A program made the position numbers and the translations under genes. From Meiothermus sp. (GTDB taxonomy: Bacteria; Deinococcota; Deinococci; Deinococcales; Thermaceae), in assembly GCF_026004075.1 (NCBI RefSeq), contig NZ_BPIK01000001.1, positions 1,962,041 through 2,026,040 on the forward strand: a stretch of 64,000 nt of DNA, read 5' to 3'. The notes under the pieces are model-generated. The model was given only the letters and a program-made list of their open reading frames with translations, was not told where the DNA came from and did not search any database. The first letter of the stretch is position 1. Each line of letters starts with the position of its first letter. Positions 4,370-23,925 of this stretch are shown piece after piece.

Positions 4370-7126
4370 TCACTGGCGGTAGAAAACCGCTCCTTTGGGG
4401 GCAATTTCGCTCAAAGCCGCCTCCAGGATGGCCTTGTCCAGCCGCTCCACCAAACCAAAGCGCAGGTAAACCAGCCGCACCTCGGGCTCGATCTGCCAGG
4501 CCTGGCGAATGGCGGTCAGGTAGATTCCCAGTTGCACGAAATACTGCTCGGGCCGCATCTCCTGGTCGGTCTTGTAGTCTTCCAGATACCACTGCTGGCC
4601 CACCCGGTACAGCCGGTCGATCACCCCCTGCCAGACCGTGGAGCCCCAGGGCAGGGCCACGGCGAACTCGGGGTAGTCCTCGTCGCGGGGCCAGGGAAGT
4701 GCGCGGCCCAGAAGTTCCTGGTAGCGCTCCAGAAGCGCCTGAACCTCGGTCATGATGTCTTTGCGCTCGTCCGGGCCAAAGGGGAACATCACCTCCTGGG
4801 CCTCGAGGTTGGCCAGATGTTGGGGGTTATCGGGGCGCCAGTTCTGCCCGATGGCGTAGTGCACCAGCGTCCCGATGGCCCGGGCGCGGCCCGGAACGGC
4901 CTCCCCCTCCTCGGGGTCGGGCAGGGGCAGGGGTTCGGCCTCGAGGCGCTTGTAGGCCGAGGGCGAAAAGAGCGGCGGGAAGGGCTCAGGCTCGAAGCGG
5001 GCATCCACCCAGGGCGAGGGCTGCGAAGGCTCCGGCGGGCTCGGCACACGTACCGGCGGCGCCGGCTGGTAGGGCCAGGTTTGCAGGTGAAAATCTGGGC
5101 GGTGATAGGGCTTGCTGGCTGGGCCCAGGTTCATGGCCTCGAGCACCTTACCCCAGCCCTCGGGCTGGCCGTGGCTGGCGCTGGCGGTAAGCAACAGGGT
5201 ATCGCGGGCCCTCGAGGCCGCCACGTACAGCAGGCGGTAGCTCTCCTCTTCCTCCAGGCGCTTTATCTGCTCCTTGAACCCTTCGAAGGCTGGGGTTTCC
5301 GGCAGGGCCACCCACTGCCTCAAGAGCCCCTCTTCCCTCCCCTGCCCCAGATACAGCGGCTGGGCCTGGTGCACATGCTTCCGCCCCAGGTCGAAGACCG
5401 CCACCAGGGGCCATTCCAGCCCTTTAGCGCGGTGGACGGTCAGGATCTGTACCCCCTCGCCCGACTGGGGCACATCGCCGGCGTCGGCCTGCCGCGAGAG
5501 CAGCTCGAGCCGCTCCAGAAGCCCCTCGAGGTTCTGCGGCGGGCGCGGGGCGAAGTAGAAGAGCAGCGCGTCCACGTTCTCCCGTGCGCGCGGCTCGAGG
5601 AAGTCGTGGTAGGGGCGGCCATCCATCAGGGGCGCCCGGATCAGAAACTTGAGCACCTCGAGCGGGGCCATCAGGCGCGCCTGGGCTTGAATCTGGCGCA
5701 GGCGCTCGTACACGCTGGGCCAGTGCTGGGCCAGGCGGCCCAGGGGGTCGTCGGCCTGCAACACCCCCTCGATCTGGGGAAGCTCGAGGGGCTTCAGGGA
5801 GCCGGCCTCGGTGTGCTGCCCGAAGGGGCTGCGCAAAAAAACCGCCAGCGACAGGCCCCTGGGGTCGAGGGCGGCCCGCAGGGCGTGGTACAGGTCGCGC
5901 ACCTCCTGCCGCTCGTAGTAGCCCCGCCCCTGCAACAGCACGTAGGGGATCTGGGCCTCGGCCAGGGCCTCTTCCAAAAAGCGCACGCTGTTGTACGAGC
6001 GCACCAGCACCGCCATCTGGCTGTACTCGATGGGGCCGCGCAGGGCCGCGAGCCGCCCAGCCAGCACCCGCGCCTCCTGCTTGCGCAGCTCCTCGAGCGG
6101 GAGCTCCCCCACCACCCAGTGCACCTCCAGCCGCCCCTGCTCGGGCCGCACCCCCTCGACCGGGGGGGCCTCCTCGGGGCCAAAGCCCAGCCCCTCTTCA
6201 GCCAGATACCCGGTAAGACCGTTCAGAAAGCGCACCAGCACCCGGCTGTGCCGGTAGCTATGGGTCAGGGGGGGTTCGGGCTCGCCTTCCCGCAGGGCCT
6301 TGCGAAAGACCGAGACGTCGGCGTTGCGAAAGGCGTAGATGGACTGCTTGGGGTCGCCCACGATCTCGATGGGCAGCCCGGCCTGCTCGAGGGCCGCAAA
6401 AAAAGCCCCTTGCAGAGGGTTCACGTCCTGGTACTCGTCCACCAGGAGCACCTCCACCCGCTCCAGAACCCGCTTTAGGGCCAGGGGGTGGCGGGTTAGT
6501 TCCAGCGCCTTGCGCTCGAGCTCGGAGGGCGAGAGCAGGTTGGCCCCCAGGCGGGCCTCGTAGGCGGCGTACACGGTCTGGTACACCTGGAGCAGGTGCT
6601 GGTTGGCCTCCCCCGCCGCTGGCTCGAAAACCTCGGCCAGGGAGCGCTTAGAAAATAGGTGCAAAAGGGGCTCGGTAAGCTCGTCGGAGACCCGGCCAAA
6701 AAGCGGGTGGTGGGGATCCTGGGCCAAATAGCGCAGGGTCTGCCACTCCTCCTCGAAGATGGCCTGGGCCTCCCAGTCGCCCAGCATGGAAAAGTCGGGG
6801 TCGAGGTGCAGTAGCGGGGCCGAGAGCCGCAGGCACTGGGCCATAAAGCCGTGGATGGTGCTGAGTGTGGCCCCGGCAATCTCGCGGGCCGCCTCTTGAA
6901 AAGCGGCCCGGTTCCCCTCCGAAGCCACAAAGCTCAGGTGCCGCCCGGTCTGCAACACCTCCTCGATGGCCGCCGCCACCCGCACCCGCAGCTCGTCGGC
7001 GGCCTTGCGGGTAAAGGTAACGCCGGCAATGCGGCGCAACGGCGTACCGGAGGCGATGAGCTCGAGGTAACGCAAGACCAGGCTGGCGGTCTTGCCGGTT
7101 CCGGCGGAGGCGACACGGACTTTCAC
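4370..7126 (-). CDS. addA: AddA-like ATP-dependent helicase-nuclease
   Basis: The 918-residue UvrD/Rep-type (SF1A) helicase has a C-terminal RecB-type nuclease. Walker A (ASAGTGKT) is at residues 6-13, the Walker B-like VDEYQDVNP near 225, and GDPKQSIYAFR near 255. The nuclease motif GVIDRLYR then LEDYKTD near 850 is intact. AddA works with AddB to process double-strand ends for recombination, with a role against foreign DNA. At 918 residues it is shorter than Bacillus AddA. The GTG start lies two bases after the stop of the doc gene, so translation is probably coupled to the toxin-antitoxin pair. The addB-like gene lies 2.3 kb away on the same strand. Confidence 0.85.
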   Translation of the reverse strand: MKVRVASAGTGKTASLVLRYLELIASGTPLRRIAGVTFTRKAADELRVRVAAAIEEVLQTGRHLSFVASEGNRAAFQEAAREIAGATLSTIHGFMAQCLRLSAPLLHLDPDFSMLGDWEAQAIFEEEWQTLRYLAQDPHHPLFGRVSDELTEPLLHLFSKRSLAEVFEPAAGEANQHLLQVYQTVYAAYEARLGANLLSPSELERKALELTRHPLALKRVLERVEVLLVDEYQDVNPLQGAFFAALEQAGLPIEIVGDPKQSIYAFRNADVSVFRKALREGEPEPPLTHSYRHSRVLVRFLNGLTGYLAEEGLGFGPEEAPPVEGVRPEQGRLEVHWVVGELPLEELRKQEARVLAGRLAALRGPIEYSQMAVLVRSYNSVRFLEEALAEAQIPYVLLQGRGYYERQEVRDLYHALRAALDPRGLSLAVFLRSPFGQHTEAGSLKPLELPQIEGVLQADDPLGRLAQHWPSVYERLRQIQAQARLMAPLEVLKFLIRAPLMDGRPYHDFLEPRARENVDALLFYFAPRPPQNLEGLLERLELLSRQADAGDVPQSGEGVQILTVHRAKGLEWPLVAVFDLGRKHVHQAQPLYLGQGREEGLLRQWVALPETPAFEGFKEQIKRLEEEESYRLLYVAASRARDTLLLTASASHGQPEGWGKVLEAMNLGPASKPYHRPDFHLQTWPYQPAPPVRVPSPPEPSQPSPWVDARFEPEPFPPLFSPSAYKRLEAEPLPLPDPEEGEAVPGRARAIGTLVHYAIGQNWRPDNPQHLANLEAQEVMFPFGPDERKDIMTEVQALLERYQELLGRALPWPRDEDYPEFAVALPWGSTVWQGVIDRLYRVGQQWYLEDYKTDQEMRPEQYFVQLGIYLTAIRQAWQIEPEVRLVYLRFGLVERLDKAILEAALSEIAPKGAVFYRQ

Positions 7127-7128
7127 GT

Positions 7129-7578
7129 CTAAAGGCTATCGTCAGCGGTATCCAGGTCGCAACCGTGGAGCAGAGCAAAACGCAAACCGGAAATCTCAAG
7201 ATGACCAGCGGCCAGCAGTGGCATTATGAGCGTCGCCGTGGACACTTCCCACTGAAGATAGTAACCGTTCTTTTCCAGTACATCGGCCATCACCGCGAAG
7301 GAGGTTCGCTTGTTCCCGTCAGCGAAAGGATGGTTTCTGGCAATGAAATACCCCAGGGCTGCTACTTTTGCGAAGAAAGTCGGGTAGAGATCTTCGCCGC
7401 CTACAGCGCGCACAGGCGCATGCATCGCACTATCGAGCAGCCCCTGATCCTTAATACCGGGCAGTCCTCCAGCCTCTTTGATCACCGCCTCGTGGAGGAT
7501 CTCGACGTAGGCAACCGTCGGGTATTGGTAACCACGGTAGCGATACCAGTACTTTTCTTTAGAGTTTGGAGAGGGCAT
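7129..7578 (-). CDS. doc: Doc-type Fic toxin (death-on-curing family)
   Basis: The 149-residue protein carries the Fic motif HPFADGNKRT at residues 83-92, which is the complete HxFx(D/N)GNKR core. The Doc subgroup phosphorylates elongation factor Tu and so stops translation. The start overlaps the end of a 57-residue gene upstream, the usual antitoxin position. The stop is two bases before the addA start. Residues LPGIKDQGLLDSAMHAP match the conserved N-terminal part of Doc homologues, so the family assignment is firm. Toxicity is inferred. Confidence 0.87.
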   Translation of the reverse strand: MPSPNSKEKYWYRYRGYQYPTVAYVEILHEAVIKEAGGLPGIKDQGLLDSAMHAPVRAVGGEDLYPTFFAKVAALGYFIARNHPFADGNKRTSFAVMADVLEKNGYYLQWEVSTATLIMPLLAAGHLEISGLRFALLHGCDLDTADDSL

Positions 7579-7795: not shown

Positions 7796-8641
7796 GTGAA
7801 ATACGCCAGTATCAACGGAACCATCATCGAACACGACAAGGCCAGCCTGCACATCTCCGATCTGGGCCTGCGGCGGGGGTATGCGGTATTCGAGTTTTTC
7901 CGCATTTTGCGGGGCGTTCCGGTGTTTCTGGGGGATCACCTCGAGCGCTTCGAGCGCTCGGCCCGGCTGCTGGAGCTTACCCCACCCTTTGGACGGGAAA
8001 AGCTCGAGGGCCTGATTCGGGAACTGATAGAGCTCAACAACCTGCGGGAGGCCGGTATCCAGATGCTGCTCACCGGGGGCTACTCCCCCGATGCCTTTAC
8101 CCCCGGCCAGCCCAACCTGGTTATTGCGCCCATGGCGGTCACCCCACCCCCAGCCCACCTCTACCAGCAGGGGGGCAAGGTCATCCTGCATCAGAACCTG
8201 CGCGAGCTACCCGAGGCCAAAACCACCGACTACCTGGTCGCGGTGAGACTCGCCAGGCGGGTGCGGGCGGAGGGGGCCACCGAGGTGATCTACCACGATG
8301 GCGAAACCGTGTACGAGGGCGGGCGCAGCAGCCTGTTGATCATCCAGAAGGGCACCCTGATCACCGCCCAGGCGGGCGTGCTACCGGGCATTACCCGCAA
8401 GCACCTGCTGGAGGTAGCCCGTCCGATTTTGCCCATCCAGGAGCGGCCCATCACCCTGAGCGAGCTCTACTCCGCCGACGAGGTGCTGCTGACCGGGGCC
8501 ACCCGGCAGGTTATGCCCATCACCCAGATTGAAGATCGGCGGGTGGGCGATGGGCAGGTAGGGCCTTACAGCCAGCAGTTGATTAAAGCCTTCCAGGAGC
8601 ACCTCGAGGCCTACCTGAACCAGCATGCGGTGCTGCGCTGA
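7796..8641 (+). CDS. class IV PLP-dependent aminotransferase
   Basis: The 281-residue protein belongs to the fold-type IV family of branched-chain and D-amino acid aminotransferases and aminodeoxychorismate lyase. Lys142 in PEAKTTDYL is the expected PLP lysine, Glu174 in VYEGGRSS the conserved cofactor residue, and RRGYAVFEFFR at 26-36 the N-terminal signature. Which reaction it catalyses cannot be told. The GTG start has no good ribosome binding site. It is divergent from the toxin-antitoxin/addA unit with about 60 bases between. Confidence 0.8.
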   Translation: MKYASINGTIIEHDKASLHISDLGLRRGYAVFEFFRILRGVPVFLGDHLERFERSARLLELTPPFGREKLEGLIRELIELNNLREAGIQMLLTGGYSPDAFTPGQPNLVIAPMAVTPPPAHLYQQGGKVILHQNLRELPEAKTTDYLVAVRLARRVRAEGATEVIYHDGETVYEGGRSSLLIIQKGTLITAQAGVLPGITRKHLLEVARPILPIQERPITLSELYSADEVLLTGATRQVMPITQIEDRRVGDGQVGPYSQQLIKAFQEHLEAYLNQHAVLR

Positions 8642-15741: not shown

Positions 15742-15846
<105 letters not shown>

Positions 15847-17131: not shown

Positions 17132-18004
17132 GTGTTGCGCCACCAAAAGTATAGCACCCCCGAGCCGGATGTTCTGCTGGAGCGGCTCAGCAACGTTCGC
17201 CTTACCGGGCGCGATAGCTGGACTGCAACCTGCCCGGCTCACGGGACAGGCAGGAACCGAGCTCTCTCGGTCACCGTCGAGGACGAAAAGCTGCTGCTCC
17301 ACTGCTTCGCCGGCTGCCCGGCTGAGGCGGTTTTGGCGGCTGTGGGTTTGGCCTGGCCTGATCTGTATGGGCGGGCTGGCCTGAGACATCGGGCCAAGTA
17401 CACGAGAACCACTACAACCCCTGAGTTTAGCGGGCTAAACACCGAAAAATGGGGGCGTTGGTGGGATGCTGCCAAGCCTCACCACCCCTTGCTGGGCCGC
17501 TACCTGCAAGCCCGAGGATTGAGCATCACCCCACCCCCGACCCTGTGGCTGGCCCTCTGGGGTGAACAGCCGGTGATGTTGGCCCGGGTGGAAGGGCTGC
17601 AAGGTCTGGTGGGGATGCACCTAACTTTCCTGAAGCCGGACGGTTCGGGACGCCTTGAGAAAAAGCTAGCCGCCGGGAGTAAACCGCTGGGCGCGGCTAT
17701 TAGGCTCTACCCCTTCGAGGCCGGTAAACCCCTGGCCCTAGCTGAGGGTATCGAGACCGCCCTGGCTGTCCACCAGGCCGCCGGCTGGGCGGTGTGGGCC
17801 TGTGTGAGCGCCGGTGGGCTGGCGGCTGTGGAGCTACCGGCTGGGGCCCGCGAGGTGGTGATAGCGGCTGACCACGACAAGGCCGGGCTCGAGGCTGCCC
17901 ATGCTTTAGCCCGCCGCTTGCTCTCGGAAGGCCGCAAGGTGCGGCTAGCTACTCCACCCCGTGAGGGGCAGGACTGGCTCGACGTGGTGGGGGGTGTGGC
18001 ATGA
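17132..18004 (+). CDS. Toprim-domain primase-like protein with CHC2-type zinc finger
   Basis: The 290-residue protein has an N-terminal zinc-binding pattern (Cys34, His37, Cys58, Cys62) like phage and plasmid primases. A C-terminal Toprim domain has the Glu motif LAEGIETAL near 203-211 and the Asp motif AADHDKAG near 247. Together these suggest a primase that makes RNA primers for replication of the element. AGGGGG precedes the GTG start. The stop overlaps the next start (ATGA), so the two are translationally coupled. The arrangement is typical of replication modules of phages and integrative elements. Confidence 0.8.
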   Translation: MLRHQKYSTPEPDVLLERLSNVRLTGRDSWTATCPAHGTGRNRALSVTVEDEKLLLHCFAGCPAEAVLAAVGLAWPDLYGRAGLRHRAKYTRTTTTPEFSGLNTEKWGRWWDAAKPHHPLLGRYLQARGLSITPPPTLWLALWGEQPVMLARVEGLQGLVGMHLTFLKPDGSGRLEKKLAAGSKPLGAAIRLYPFEAGKPLALAEGIETALAVHQAAGWAVWACVSAGGLAAVELPAGAREVVIAADHDKAGLEAAHALARRLLSEGRKVRLATPPREGQDWLDVVGGVA

Positions 18005-19530
18005 GCGAGCCCATCAAGCTGCTGCACGAGGCCCCCGAGGTCGAACCCAAGCAAGCCTGGCCCGAGCCGCTGCCCCTTTACCGCGACCCCGAGGCCCCCG
18101 AGGCCTTCCCCCTGGAGGCCCTGGGTAGCCTTGCCCCCGTGGTGCGTGAGACTTTGCGCATTGTGCAGGCGCCGGATGCCCTGGTAGCCGCTTCCTACCT
18201 GGCCGCCACAAGCCTGGTCGTGCAGGGCCTGGCAAACGTCGTGGTGGATGGGCGGGTGTACCCCCTGAGCCTCTACTTCCTCACCGTTGCAGAGAGCGGG
18301 GAGCGCAAGACCGCCGTAGACACCATAGCCACCGCGCCCTTGCGTGAACGACAGAAAACCCTGCACCTGACCCAGCAGGATGAGGCCACCGCCTGGGAGG
18401 GCCGGTACACCCTCTGGGAGGCCGAGCGCAAAGCCATCATCACCAGGAAAAACACCAGCCGCGCGGAGCGTGAGACCGCCTTAGAACAGCTTGGCCCGCC
18501 ACCGTCTAAGCCCTGGAGCGGCATCATGCTTACCAGCGAGCCCACCTACGAGGGCCTGGTCAAACTGCTGGCCGACGGCTGGCCCTCCGTGGGGCTTGTC
18601 TCTAACGAGGGTGGCAGTTTCCTGGGGGGGCATGCCCTCAGTCAAGATCACCGGTTACGTACTCTTTCGGGGCTGAGTGAGCTCTGGGACGGTCAGGCGA
18701 TTGACCGCGTGCGAGCCGGGGATGGGGCAACACTGCTCTACAACCGCCGGGCCGCTTTGCACCTGATGGCCCAGCCGGTGGTAGCCCGCAGCCTGCTGGC
18801 CGACCCGCTGGCCCAAGGTCAGGGCTTCCTGGCCCGGATGCTCGTTACGGAGCCCTCGAGTACCGCCGGAGGGCGCTGGTACGTGTCGGAGTCGGTTCTG
18901 GACACCCCCGAGTACCAGGCCTATGCCGCCCGGCTTACGCGGGCTTTCGAAATCGTGGAGCAGGTAGTACTTAACGACCCGGAGGCCCGCAAGCAAGGGC
19001 TAAGCCTGAAAAACATCCCTCTGACCCCCGAGGCCAAGAAGTTGTGGACTAACTTTTACAACCACGTCGAACGCAATCTGAATGGCGAGCTCTTGCAGAT
19101 TCGCGCCTTCGCAAGCAAGTTAGCCGAGCACGCCCTGAGGCTGGCCGGGGTGCTGGCCCTGTTTGAAAACCCGGAGGCTACCAGCATCGGTAAAGATGCT
19201 ATGGAGCAGGGCGTTGCGTTAGCCGAGTTTTACGGAGCCGAGTCCTTCCGGCTGGTGGGCGGCTACCGCATCCCCCGACCCCTGGCCCTGGCAGCCGAGG
19301 TCTTGAACTGGCTGTTGGAGCACTGCAAAGCAAAGAACCGCCGGGTCTTCCACCTGGCCGAGGTCTACCGGCTGGGGCCGCCCGCCGTAAGGAGCGCACG
19401 AGCCGCCCGCGAGGTCATCCGCATCCTGGAAGAACACGGCTACCTGGCCCACCGTCCGAACATCGAGGTGGATGGCAAACCCCGCAAGGATGCCTGGGAG
19501 GTGAACCCCCATGCCCTTCCCCAAGTTTGA
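18001..19530 (+). CDS. DUF3987 (YfjI-like) replication protein
   Basis: The 509-residue protein matches DUF3987 proteins that accompany Toprim primases in mobile elements. A P-loop-like sequence AESGERKT is at residues 97-104. Downstream stretches include LTSEPTYEGLVKLLADGWPS, SNEGGSFLGG, LSGLSELWDGQ and the Arg-rich RRAALHLMAQP. They may act as helicase-like partners, but the biochemical role is not established. It overlaps the primase gene by four bases and the next gene by twenty. Confidence 0.75.
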   Translation: MSEPIKLLHEAPEVEPKQAWPEPLPLYRDPEAPEAFPLEALGSLAPVVRETLRIVQAPDALVAASYLAATSLVVQGLANVVVDGRVYPLSLYFLTVAESGERKTAVDTIATAPLRERQKTLHLTQQDEATAWEGRYTLWEAERKAIITRKNTSRAERETALEQLGPPPSKPWSGIMLTSEPTYEGLVKLLADGWPSVGLVSNEGGSFLGGHALSQDHRLRTLSGLSELWDGQAIDRVRAGDGATLLYNRRAALHLMAQPVVARSLLADPLAQGQGFLARMLVTEPSSTAGGRWYVSESVLDTPEYQAYAARLTRAFEIVEQVVLNDPEARKQGLSLKNIPLTPEAKKLWTNFYNHVERNLNGELLQIRAFASKLAEHALRLAGVLALFENPEATSIGKDAMEQGVALAEFYGAESFRLVGGYRIPRPLALAAEVLNWLLEHCKAKNRRVFHLAEVYRLGPPAVRSARAAREVIRILEEHGYLAHRPNIEVDGKPRKDAWEVNPHALPQV

Positions 19531-20236
19531 CTTCAACAGTCTTGCGAATCCTGCGAATCTGCGAAACAAAAAGGAAGAGCCTCGTCCAGAACGCCATTAT
19601 TCCGATTCGCAGGTTCTGCGAAACTCCTGCGAATCCTGCGAATCGGTTGCGAAACCAGAGCCCGATTCGCAGACTTTCGCAGCTTTCGCAGCGGATTCGC
19701 AGAACAGGAAAGATGGGGTTTGTCCCGTCCAGGACAACGACAACGCCCCTAGATTCGCAGATTCGCAACTTTCGCAAGGCTCGGATGCTCGAGCCGCCCT
19801 CACCGCCCGGCTGCTCGAGGCTGGCCGGGCTTTGGGCTGGAGCGATTCCACCCTCGAGGGCTGGCAGTCCTGGGCCGCCACCGCGCCGCTGGAGACCCCG
19901 CAAGCCCGTGTTGATACTACCGAAGCCCATCTGAACCCCAGGCGCGATACCGACCCCTCGGGCTGCCCTACCCACTGGCACGGTGTGCCTGAGCTACCCC
20001 CCAAGGGCTCGAGGGTGGTTATGGTGGACGCTCAAGGCTTTGGCAACCTGTACCGCTTCAAGCACGCCGAGGCGTGGTATCTGCTCAAGTTTCTACCTCC
20101 CTTCGATGGCCGGCTGTCCCTGACCGACCCGCAAGGGGTGGTGCGGGTGCTGGGTAGCCTGGGGGAGGTTGCCACATTCCTGGCCGCACTAGAGGAGCCA
20201 GAGGGCTACCCCGACGAGGGGGAGAGGGTCGGATGA
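19511..20236 (+). CDS. element protein with iteron-bearing coding sequence
   Basis: GGGAGG lies about seven bases before the ATG, inside the end of the DUF3987 gene. The product is 241 residues. The first 90 are low in predicted structure and rich in Ser, Asn, Glu and Gln, because the DNA there is packed with GCGAA/TTCGC repeats. The rest (from about 95) looks folded, with strands around GSRVVMVDAQGFGNLYRF and a helix at GEVATFLAALEE. I do not recognise the family. Last gene of the rightward replication operon. Confidence 0.6.
   Translation: MPFPKFDFNSLANPANLRNKKEEPRPERHYSDSQVLRNSCESCESVAKPEPDSQTFAAFAADSQNRKDGVCPVQDNDNAPRFADSQLSQGSDARAALTARLLEAGRALGWSDSTLEGWQSWAATAPLETPQARVDTTEAHLNPRRDTDPSGCPTHWHGVPELPPKGSRVVMVDAQGFGNLYRFKHAEAWYLLKFLPPFDGRLSLTDPQGVVRVLGSLGEVATFLAALEEPEGYPDEGERVG
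19544..19775. repeat. iteron-like array of 15 GCGAA/TTCGC sites
   Basis: Seven GCGAA and eight TTCGC pentamers lie in 232 bases, where under one would be expected by chance. Most are extended to TGCGAA(T/A)C or its complement. Spacing inside each cluster is 8-11 bases, about one helical turn. Clusters are GCGAA at 19544-19565 and 19618-19653, and TTCGC at 19666-19700 and 19754-19775. The repeats fall in all three codon phases, so the pattern is set by the DNA and not by the protein. Confidence 0.75.
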
Positions 20237-20755
20237 ACAAATACCCTCACCTACCTGCTTTGCGACAACCGGCTGCTCGAGGTTGCCCCTGGTGTTGGGT
20301 GAGACTGCTACAGGCTGGCTGAACGTGGTGTGTTGCTGGCTATTGGATAGCCTATCGTTGGCGGTTACTCTGCACAAAGTGAGCGGTCTGAAAATGCGTA
20401 CTTATCAACAAAAGTACGCATCTCCCCTTCCGTCCGACAACAACCGGCTGACACCAGGGACTGCACAATAGATTGCACAGTAGGTTGAACTCCAGGGTAG
20501 GGGGCGCCCCCCCAAACCACACACTAGTAATCAATAGCACCCTTAATCCCGCCAAGGGTTTTCTATGACCATTGTTGCACAGGTTAGGGGCATGGGGGCT
20601 CTGGTAAGCGCATGAGATTTCCCGTTTAGGCAAGGCTCCTTTAGGAGGTCTTTCGCTCAAATGAGTCTCTCAACGTCCATTCGAGAAAATGTGGCAGTTC
20701 ACGAGCGGAGCACCATCCTAAGCCTGGGGCTAGTTTCTGTAACGGTCAGCCCCCA
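20237..20755. other. 519-base non-coding region, candidate replication origin
   Basis: No frame here has a start, codon use or neighbours that support a gene. It holds a 10-bp inverted repeat around TTATCAACA (20394-20421), a GGGGGC/GCCCCC palindrome at 20500-20511, and several TTGCACA-like words (20463, 20473, 20575). It lies between the rightward replication operon and the leftward membrane protein gene. Confidence 0.5.
20394..20421. promoter_or_regulatory. inverted repeat enclosing a DnaA-box-like sequence
   Basis: ATGCGTACTT and AAGTACGCAT form a perfect 10-bp inverted repeat. The loop and adjoining bases read TTATCAACA (20402-20410), one base from the bacterial DnaA box TTATCCACA. It is the only such structure I see in the element. 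Confidence 0.5.
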
Positions 20756-21713: not shown

Positions 21714-22295
21714 CGGGCTAAACAAGATTGGTGAGGTGCTATCATGCCGAAAAAATCCAGCAAGCGGGCAAATGGTCACGGCAGCAAGCCGGTACAACGG
21801 GGGAATTCCTACACGATGCAGGTTACGCTAGGCCGACGCAGGGACGGTAAACTTGACCGCCGCAGGGTCACGGCCTCCACCCGAGAGGAGGTTGAGCAGA
21901 AGGCCCGCGAGCTTCAGGTGCTCTACACCAAGGGCATGATAGCTGAGCCCGACTCCGTGACCTTCAAGGAGCGGGGTGAGCTTTGGCTCAGGCGGAAGGC
22001 CCGCACGGCCCGGCCCAAGACCCTGGAGGGCTATGGCTGGCTGCTAAGGCGGTACGTGTATGCCCACCTGGGGGAGCGTAAGGTACAGGCTTTGAGGCCT
22101 CCGCACATCCGGGGGTTCTACGAGTCCCTGCTGGAGTCGGGGATGTCGTCGGAGACCTTTCGGCAGGTGCGTTATCTGGTACGGGCCATTTTGGAGGATG
22201 CCCTGGCGGACGAGGTTGTAGCCCGCAACGTGGCCCACGGGGTGCGGGTGGAGTTACCCAAGACCCAGCGTACCGGCCAGTCCTGGAGCCCCTTA

Positions 22296-23160
22296 GAATC
22301 TACAAACCACCTTACCCAAATCAGGCACTGCAGTTATGTTTAGAGCATGAACCGCCGTGCTTACCCATCGGACGTCCGTGATGAGGAATGGGCTCTGGTG
22401 CTGCCCTATTTGACCCTCGCCCCGCTGGAAGCACCCCAGCGCAAGTACGACCTGCGCGAAGTGTTCAACGCCCTGCGCTGGATGGTTCGAACCGGTGCTC
22501 AGTGGGACTACCTGCCCCACGACTTCCCACCCCCCCATATCGTTCAGGCGCAAGCCTACCGCTGGATGAACCGGGGGGTCTTCGAAGACCTGGTACACGA
22601 CCTGCGCATGACCCTGCGAATGCTCCAGGGCAAAGCCGCCCATCCCAGCGCTGCCATCTACGATGCTCGCACCCTACAGTCCACCCCGCAAAGTGGGGAG
22701 CGGGCCGGATACGATGGGTACAAACGACGCAAGGGAAGCAAAGTTCACCTGGCGGTAGATACCCTGGGGCATCTGCTGGCCCTGGTAGTAACGGCGGCCA
22801 GTGAACAGGAACGGGCCCAGGTGGGAGCCCTCAGTCAACAGGTGCAGGAAGTGACGGGGGAGCAGGTGGAAGTGGCCTTTGTGGATCAGGGTTACACTGG
22901 GGAGGAAGCGGCACAAGCGGCAGAGGCGGAAGGCATCGCCCTGTGTGTGGTCAAGGTGGAAGGGGCCAAACGAGGATTCGTGCTGCTGCCGAAGCGTTGG
23001 GTGGTGGAACGTTCGTTTGCCTGGACATCCCGGTTTCGCAGGCTGGCGCGAGACTATGAGCGGCTGGCTGAGACCTTGCGAGGTTGGCACTGGTTGGCTT
23101 TTTCGATTCTGATGACAGCGAAAACTGTGGAGCTTTTACGAACAGCTAGTTAGCAGGCTC
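22296..23160 (+). mobile_element. IS5-family element inside the integrase gene
   Basis: The 865-bp element has imperfect ends (GAATCTACAAACCA and GAGCCTGCTAACTA, nine of fourteen matching) and is flanked by TA on both sides, at 22294-22295 and 23161-23162. A two-base TA duplication fits IS5 relatives. It differs from the element at 1431-2360 in ends and transposase and has no frameshift. It lacks CTCGAG. Confidence 0.85.
22347..23153 (+). CDS. IS5-family transposase (single frame)
   Basis: The 268-residue transposase has an N-terminal DUF4096-type domain ([18 protein letters not shown]) and a DDE catalytic set: Asp106 in IYDARTLQS, Asp180 in FVDQGYTG, and Glu221 in VVERSFAW. The frame is intact from the ATG at 22347 to a TAG seven bases before the right end. 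It is read in the same direction as the integrase it disrupts. Confidence 0.88.
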
Positions 23161-23788
23161 TAGAGGTTAGGGCTTTTTTACAGGCTGCCACAAACGAAAG
23201 GCTGTACCCTCTGTTTTACTTGATGCTCACCCTGGGCCTCAGGCGGGGCGAGGTGCTGGGGCTACGCTGGGTGGACGTGAACCTCGAGGGGTCTACTTTG
23301 CGGGTATCGCAAACGCTTACCCTGGTGGGTGGAAAGCCCCACTTCGGGCAACCCAAGACTGAAAGCTCTCGCCGGGTGCTTGACCTCCCCCCCGACGTGC
23401 GGGAGGTGTTGTCCGACTGGAGAGCACAACAGCGGGGTGAGCGGGAGATAGCTGGGGCAGACTGGGAAGACAGCGGCCTGGTGTTCACCACCGCCCTGGG
23501 CGGCTACCTCCACCCCGACAACCTAAAGCGGGTGCTCCACCGGGTGGCAAAGCGGGCAGGGGTCAAACCCGTGCGGATTCACGACCTGCGTCATACCTAT
23601 GCTTCCCTGGCTATCAGCAATGGGGTTCCGGCGGAGGTGGCCTCAGAGAAGCTGGGCCATACCCAGGTGGCCTTTACGCTAAAACAGTACAGGCACGTTC
23701 TGGAACACGAGCACAAGGGGTATGCCCTTCCCCTTACCGACCTGCTCAGGGAGCGAAATATCCCCAAGGCTTAGGGGCGGTTGCACCA

Positions 23789-23925
<137 letters not shown>

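Follow-up and report, generated by a model that had tools for sequence, protein, structure and literature searches.

We propose that a dense, mirror-symmetric array of short repeats in a small integrative element of Meiothermus sp. is the replication origin of that element, and that its reader is the winged helix of a DUF3987 protein. The gene for this protein directly precedes the array, and the protein is itself predicted to be an MCM-like helicase. We place the probability of this reading at roughly 0.83, with both the binding and the origin activity inferred. It rests upon the number and arrangement of the repeats, upon the recurrence of comparable arrays behind other DUF3987 genes, and upon a residue of the protein that changes in step with one base of the repeated word.

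The element and its array

The window, by which we mean the whole stretch of DNA that was analysed (64,000 nucleotides), contains an 8.1-kb integrative element bounded by a 74-bp direct repeat at a tRNA-Ala gene. The element encodes a Toprim primase, a DUF3987 protein, ORF241 and a tyrosine integrase (Table 1). The integrase gene is interrupted by an IS4/5-type transposase gene, so this copy is probably no longer mobile, or at least unable to excise by itself. PF13148 is the sole Pfam match of the DUF3987 protein, which matches neither DUF927 nor Primase_Cterm/D5.

Table 1. Features of the integrative element and of the array within it (window coordinates).
Feature	Position	Strand	Remark
Left attachment repeat	15773..15846		74 bp, includes 3' part of tRNA-Ala
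Toprim primase	17132..18004	+	PF13362; also PHROG primase families
DUF3987 protein, proposed origin-binding initiator helicase	18001..19530	+	PF13148, YfjI family; 509 aa; E 5.8e-86
C-terminal winged helix of DUF3987, proposed TGCGAA reader	19276..19503	+	residues ~426-501
Arg457 codon	19369..19371	+	Arg/Gln state tracks G/T at word base 4
ORF241	19511..20236	+	variable N-terminal part encoded by array
Dyad-symmetric iteron array, proposed replication origin	19543..19776		15 x TGCGAA
Outer left triplet (>>>)	19543..19566	+	TGCGAA at 19543, 19552, 19560
Left copy of shared box, GTCCAGAAC	19584..19592		consensus GTCC[A/T]GGAC
Single inverted site (<)	19606..19611	-	after left long gap
Inner left quartet (>>>>)	19617..19653	+	
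Inner right quartet (<<<<)	19666..19701	-	
Right copy of shared box, GTCCAGGAC	19727..19735		
Outer right triplet (<<<)	19754..19776	-	
Conserved C-terminal domain of ORF241	19934..20203	+	no Pfam/PHROG family
Tyrosine integrase gene	21744..23774	+	split by IS4/5-type transposase gene (22347-23153)
Right attachment repeat	23820..23893		overlaps tRNA-Ala(GGC) 23849-23924 (-)

A previous sequence-only reading of this DNA had reported fifteen GCGAA/TTCGC pentamers in 232 bases, far above chance, and a direct count recovered every one of them at exactly the same position. That reading had named a comparison with shuffled sequence as a check, which the array passes: dinucleotide-preserving shuffles of the 232-bp stretch (n = 5000) held a mean of 2.0 pentamers and a maximum of 8, with none reaching 15. 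The window as a whole has 135 pentamers in 64 kb, predicting 0.5 per array-sized stretch, and its densest other 232-bp stretch has 5. The full word at the sites is TGCGAA in 15 of 15 cases. The array starts 16 bp past the DUF3987 reading frame, within the start of ORF241, and its sites occupy both strands and, as had been stated, all three codon phases of that gene (6/2/7), from which it follows that the constraint acts on the DNA.

The sites had been described as four oriented clusters; there are in fact five oriented groups, in the order >>> < >>>> (dyad) <<<< <<<. The spacing given for them, 8 to 11 bases, was right as regards the near-helical pitch within groups, but the actual range is 8-12 bp, and there are also two long gaps (45 and 58 bp) and one of 17 bp at the centre. 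Alignment of the array with its reverse complement reveals a near-perfect dyad with one centre at ~19659.5 (z = 4.8), and each long gap holds one copy of a short box. Neither the dyad, nor the gap boxes, nor the full TGCGAA word had been noted in the sequence-only reading. The mirror partner (>) of the single inverted site is missing in the window and present in the related loci L029, L021 and L024. At 46% AT and without an AT-rich core, the array shows no obvious AT-rich unwinding element at its dyad. A separate feature lies in the intergenic DNA behind ORF241 (20391-20422), where an inverted repeat, ATGCGTACTT...AAGTACGCAT, flanks a DnaA-box-like TTATCAACA; this one DnaA-like sequence, at 20402, is 0.6 kb from the array.

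Arrays in relatives and behind other DUF3987 genes

The C-terminal domain of ORF241 was found in 10 of 50 Thermaceae genomes, with the loci in named genomes belonging to Meiothermus and Calidithermus, and it adjoins an array in all but its most distant copies. The words beside these relatives include TGCTAA, CACTGAC, ACCCGCA, ACCGACA, CGTGCAC and AATGTCA, and Thermus arrays, with GGCTAC among their words, have the same layout. A search for the same array in relatives, as had been suggested, therefore succeeds with respect to layout and place, but finds it spelled with other words. Related elements that keep the proteins and lack the sites had been named as grounds for refutation; such elements do exist if GCGAA is taken literally, but in the same position they have arrays built from different words.

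The geometry of these arrays is strikingly regular. Locus L029 has the order >>> < >>>> (dyad) <<<< > <<<, with gaps of 9, 8, 46, 12, 11, 10 and 9 on the left, 30 at the centre, and 9, 10, 11, 12, 45, 9 and 9 on the right, and L021 has 8, 46, 12, 11 and 10, then 20, then 10, 11, 12, 46 and 8. L024 and L019 are similar to both, the Thermus locus L063 begins with 9, 9, 46 and ends with 46, 9, 9, and L022, whose word is palindromic, has 56, 11, 10, 45 ... 45, 10, 11, 56. In most of the arrays examined the dyad is sharp, with z between about 4 and 9.5. The GTCC[A/T]GGAC box occurs in the long gaps regardless of the word, usually with no more than one mismatch and in Thermus arrays too. We considered whether this box is specific to the elements and rejected the idea, as it is also scattered genome-wide; in the G000 genome CGTCC[A/T]GGAC has 43 sites against 12 for a reversed control, and many full palindromes lie outside elements. 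This longer form may be the site of a host regulator or nucleoid protein, and the genome-wide scatter makes a host factor the more likely binder of the box.

Elements that reside in the same genome differ in their words in G012 (3/3), G004 (2/2) and G007 (2/2), and the four elements of G000 have three words among them, one being duplicated. Some loci contain more than one array. L029 has two TGCTAA arrays ~4.7 kb apart, inverted and with conserved flanks (2301-2541 and 6976-7216 of the oriented copy), the second of which is a diverged copy of the origin region, and L019 has two arrays about 300 bp apart. The CGTGCAC array of L025 is divided into left and right halves (6790-6913 and 8185-8329 of the oriented copy) around an ORF241-like domain and the next gene, and in L028 and L030 the ORF241-like gene ends in a partial second CACTGAC array that is translated in frame. 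Dyad arrays are also seen at the same place in L022, the second element of L020, L025 and L026, where the helicases are AAA proteins without DUF3987, some of them with Prim-Pol. Given that elements of types D and E pair their arrays with unrelated helicases, the layout is not exclusive to DUF3987.

For DUF3987 genes in general, we sampled 48 with enough flanking sequence and sought a strong array within 350 bp downstream, the IMG/VR profile searches having used narrower alignments of DUF3987 subgroups rather than one family-wide alignment. Such an array was present behind 23 of the 48. Only 13 of 477 control ORFs scored as high, and 12 of those 13 adjoin or overlap the same arrays. The array-bearing genes come from Thermus, from plasmids of Paracoccus, Psychrobacter, Legionella and Streptomyces and from several IMG/VR contigs, so that arrays directly 3' of DUF3987 genes are observed in three bacterial phyla. 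Most begin +3 to +150 bp past the DUF3987 stop codon, and for most of the long arrays, again in three phyla, the dyad centre falls +130 to +165 bp from it. About half of the sampled genes have no array downstream, and none was detectable downstream of the enteric YfjI genes (L086, L091-L098) or of the DUF3987 gene of phage Javan191; the origin of the enteric YfjI loci, if there is one, must therefore look different.

Which protein reads the word

An AF2 model of the DUF3987 protein from the window (pLDDT 88) has an AAA+ core followed by a C-terminal winged helix at residues 426-501. The best structural match is to MCM helicases (Foldseek E 3.5e-5), with a VIA-align Z of 18.1 and an rmsd of 3.6 A over 270 residues at 14% identity. 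DUF3987 is on this basis predicted to be an MCM-like AAA+ helicase, although the resemblance is one of fold only and the helicase activity is inferred. Arg457 is placed by the model at the end of helix 2 and not in the usual recognition helix 3, and its direct contact with DNA is likewise an inference.

Related DUF3987 proteins are accompanied by related words, the YfjI-like branch, which extends from Meiothermus to Legionella, having TGC[G/T]A[A/C] throughout. Within these words, base 4 is tracked by the residue at the position of Arg457. When sites were counted in the 350 bp downstream, with no word chosen beforehand, Arg went with TGCGA at 7 of 7 loci and Gln with TGCTA at 11 of 11 (Fisher 3e-5, uncorrected for kinship), and all six newly fetched loci, some of them kin of earlier ones, obeyed the rule as it had been recorded before they were retrieved. 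On the tree, at least four pairs of sister groups have changed residue and base in concert (the window against L020a/L029, L108 against L109, L102 against L101/L105, and L084 against L090), and the proteins of one such pair, L108 and L109, are 92% identical. In another DUF3987 subgroup, the helix-turn-helix of Thermus L071 differs from that of L078 only at the 457-equivalent and its neighbour (RN/TK), and their words, CCCGACA and CCCGGCA, are one base apart. The simple Arg/Gln rule is not without exceptions: Thermus L063 and L073 have Arg-Tyr with GGCTAC, L112 has Asn with GCGATT, and L126 is a counterexample, with Gln and three TGCGA sites, that lies below threshold. A further pattern concerns the winged-helix position that comes after the GP motif and then a conserved Arg; it is Ser or Met with TGCxAA and mostly Asp, Glu, Thr or Asn with TGCxAC, one Ser (L129) being the exception. 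It is possible, judging from this alignment pattern, that this residue makes a second contact.

The C-terminal domain of ORF241 behaves quite differently. Its identity is 73% between pairs with the same word and 72% between pairs with different words (a comparison that excludes the Rep identities of unrelated pairs, for which alignments were end-free and one gave an artefactual 100%), and it is identical in L020b (CGTGCAC) and L021 (CACTGAC). Its relatives were found in Meiothermus and Calidithermus only, with none in the Thermus, IMG/VR, plasmid or phage collections. ORF241, or its C-terminal domain, was therefore rejected as the reader of the word, its conservation being independent of the word, albeit by a test on sequence alone. 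As array and word accompany DUF3987 even where an organism lacks ORF241, and as a winged-helix residue covaries with the word, the array is probably read by the winged helix of DUF3987 and not by the primase or ORF241; there are no binding data to support this assignment.

A proposed origin, its rivals and its precedents

The sequence-only reading had inferred that the array is the initiator-binding part of the element's origin, embedded in the gene that follows the DUF3987 gene, and this remains the best-supported reading in the absence of binding or replication data. In the arrangement that we envisage, DUF3987 copies would attach to those TGCGAA words of either half that point inward. This would set them head to head on the two sides of the dyad, where they would load as two opposed helicase rings, hexamers by inference, and the Toprim primase (Prim-Pol in relatives) would then prime both forks. 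The GTCC[A/T]GGAC boxes are probable host-factor sites, and the inferred role of that factor would be to bend the two long gaps. The word may be changed through changes in the winged helix, and we propose that such switching is the reason why the words of cohabiting elements are mostly different.

Several other explanations need to be weighed against this. It could be that DUF3987 does bind the array, but as a control or incompatibility locus, through copy-number handcuffing or as an auxiliary site resembling crr of P4, with initiation occurring elsewhere. The second arrays of L029 and L019 and the half array of L028/L030, the lack of an AT-rich element at the dyad and the mostly different words of cohabiting elements could all be accommodated in this way, but most loci have a single array directly 3' of the helicase gene, which is where SaPI origins sit, and no second conserved cis site was seen; we consider this explanation unlikely. 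Centromeres, too, can consist of short repeats that run in both directions and enclose a host-factor site, and a parS- or parC-like centromere bound by a ParB- or ParR-type protein would fit that aspect of the data. It would not, however, predict a word that covaries with a DUF3987 residue, and the genes recognised in the element include none for partition, which makes it very improbable.

There is less still to recommend the notion that ORF241 is a lambda-O-like initiator binding an array in its own gene. The array does lie inside the ORF241 frame, which is open through it in 10 of 10 class A-C elements examined, but its conserved domain can be identical in elements whose words differ, and searches of the Thermus, plasmid and IMG/VR collections, from which other array-bearing loci come, did not find it. 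We attach almost no weight to the two remaining candidates. The sites do fall within a coding frame, as a protein-level repeat or a codon bias mimicking a DNA array would require, but, as had already been argued from the phase distribution, their use of all three phases excludes this, and so do their presence on both strands and the arrays of other elements that cross gene ends or are intergenic with the mirror spacing kept; this reading is refuted. Arm sites for the integrase or an excisionase, or a transfer origin, might be expected of an element with an integrase and att sites, but the att repeats are ~4 kb away, the arrays follow DUF3987 rather than the integrase, and no relaxase was seen.

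If the array is indeed an origin read by DUF3987, a broader proposition can be entertained, which we advance tentatively and regard as somewhat short of an even chance: that DUF3987/YfjI proteins are bacterial MCM-like initiators which form two opposed rings on a mirror origin that they read themselves, and that a nearly one-residue-per-base code (Arg-G/Gln-T at base 4) lets mobile elements change their origin specificity and live side by side in one cell. A survey from 2018 considered DUF3987 a predicted helicase and suggested origin recognition for the winged helices of related primases (PMC5862659), and no DUF3987 origin is described in the available portions of that survey, PMC7581432 or PMC10803314. 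In the literature searched, which left out most subscription papers, iterons are nowhere connected with DUF3987 or YfjI, and neither a strict mirror layout nor a residue-base code of this kind appears to have been described. DUF3987 is found in satellites, in plasmids and in integrative elements but is annotated as being of unknown function, and a likely function can now be offered. The 300 bp behind a DUF3987 gene suggest themselves as the region in which to search for an origin, and the Arg/Gln rule offers a simple mutation test of word specificity. The loading of an MCM-like helicase at a defined dyad could also be studied in these elements as a natural system, and the findings may explain why related elements are compatible in one chromosome.

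Amongst known systems, SaPI origins are, by analogy, the closest working model for the DUF3987 array. The C-terminal domain of SaPI Rep helicases reads iterons directly downstream of the helicase's own gene, and SCCmec Cch2 with its AAGTG repeats is presented alongside SaPI Rep and its origin (PMC7581432). An initiator helicase with a C-terminal double-stranded DNA-binding domain (predicted here), short repeats directly downstream and a proposed loading of two hexamers are common to both. The differences are that the helicase here is DUF3987 and not DUF927 or Primase_Cterm/D5, that many inverted words are held in strict mirror spacing together with a shared box, and that in Meiothermus the array sits inside the next gene and covariation of one residue with one base is seen. 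The search model for PICMI, phage satellites of Vibrionaceae, defines the primase gene by DUF3987/DUF5906, and deletion of that gene lowers replication of PICMI115 (PMC10803314). PICMI too are small integrative elements with an integrase and a DUF3987/DUF5906-detected gene needed for normal replication, but no AlpA gene was recognised in the window element and the integration site differs.

The window element is also like phage P4 in that one element-encoded protein is proposed to read short repeats. The alpha protein of P4 is a single helicase/primase that binds such repeats, and the C-terminal end of the class E relative L026 looks similar to the C-terminal domain of alpha; P4 differs in having two separate sites, ori and crr, and a helicase of another family. 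Iteron plasmids (RepA, RepE, TrfA) have repeats of ~17-22 bp and winged-helix initiators that work with DnaA or a helicase loader. The likeness to iterons that had been pointed out holds for these plasmids, and for the lambda origin, which also lies inside a gene, as far as the clustering of initiator sites at about one helical turn is concerned. It does not extend to classic plasmid iterons in detail, as here the words are of 6 bp, in both orientations, at a pitch of 8-12 bp and in a mirror layout, and the proposed initiator is the helicase itself; nor does it extend to lambda-type origins, in that the C-terminal domain of ORF241, the gene holding the array, does not follow the word, as judged from sequence alone. 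MCM helicases of archaea and eukaryotes share the predicted ATPase fold of DUF3987 and its C-terminal winged helix, and their head-to-head loading would match a dyad origin. The identity in structural alignment is only about 12-14%, and DUF3987, in contrast to MCM, would read a specific word by itself.
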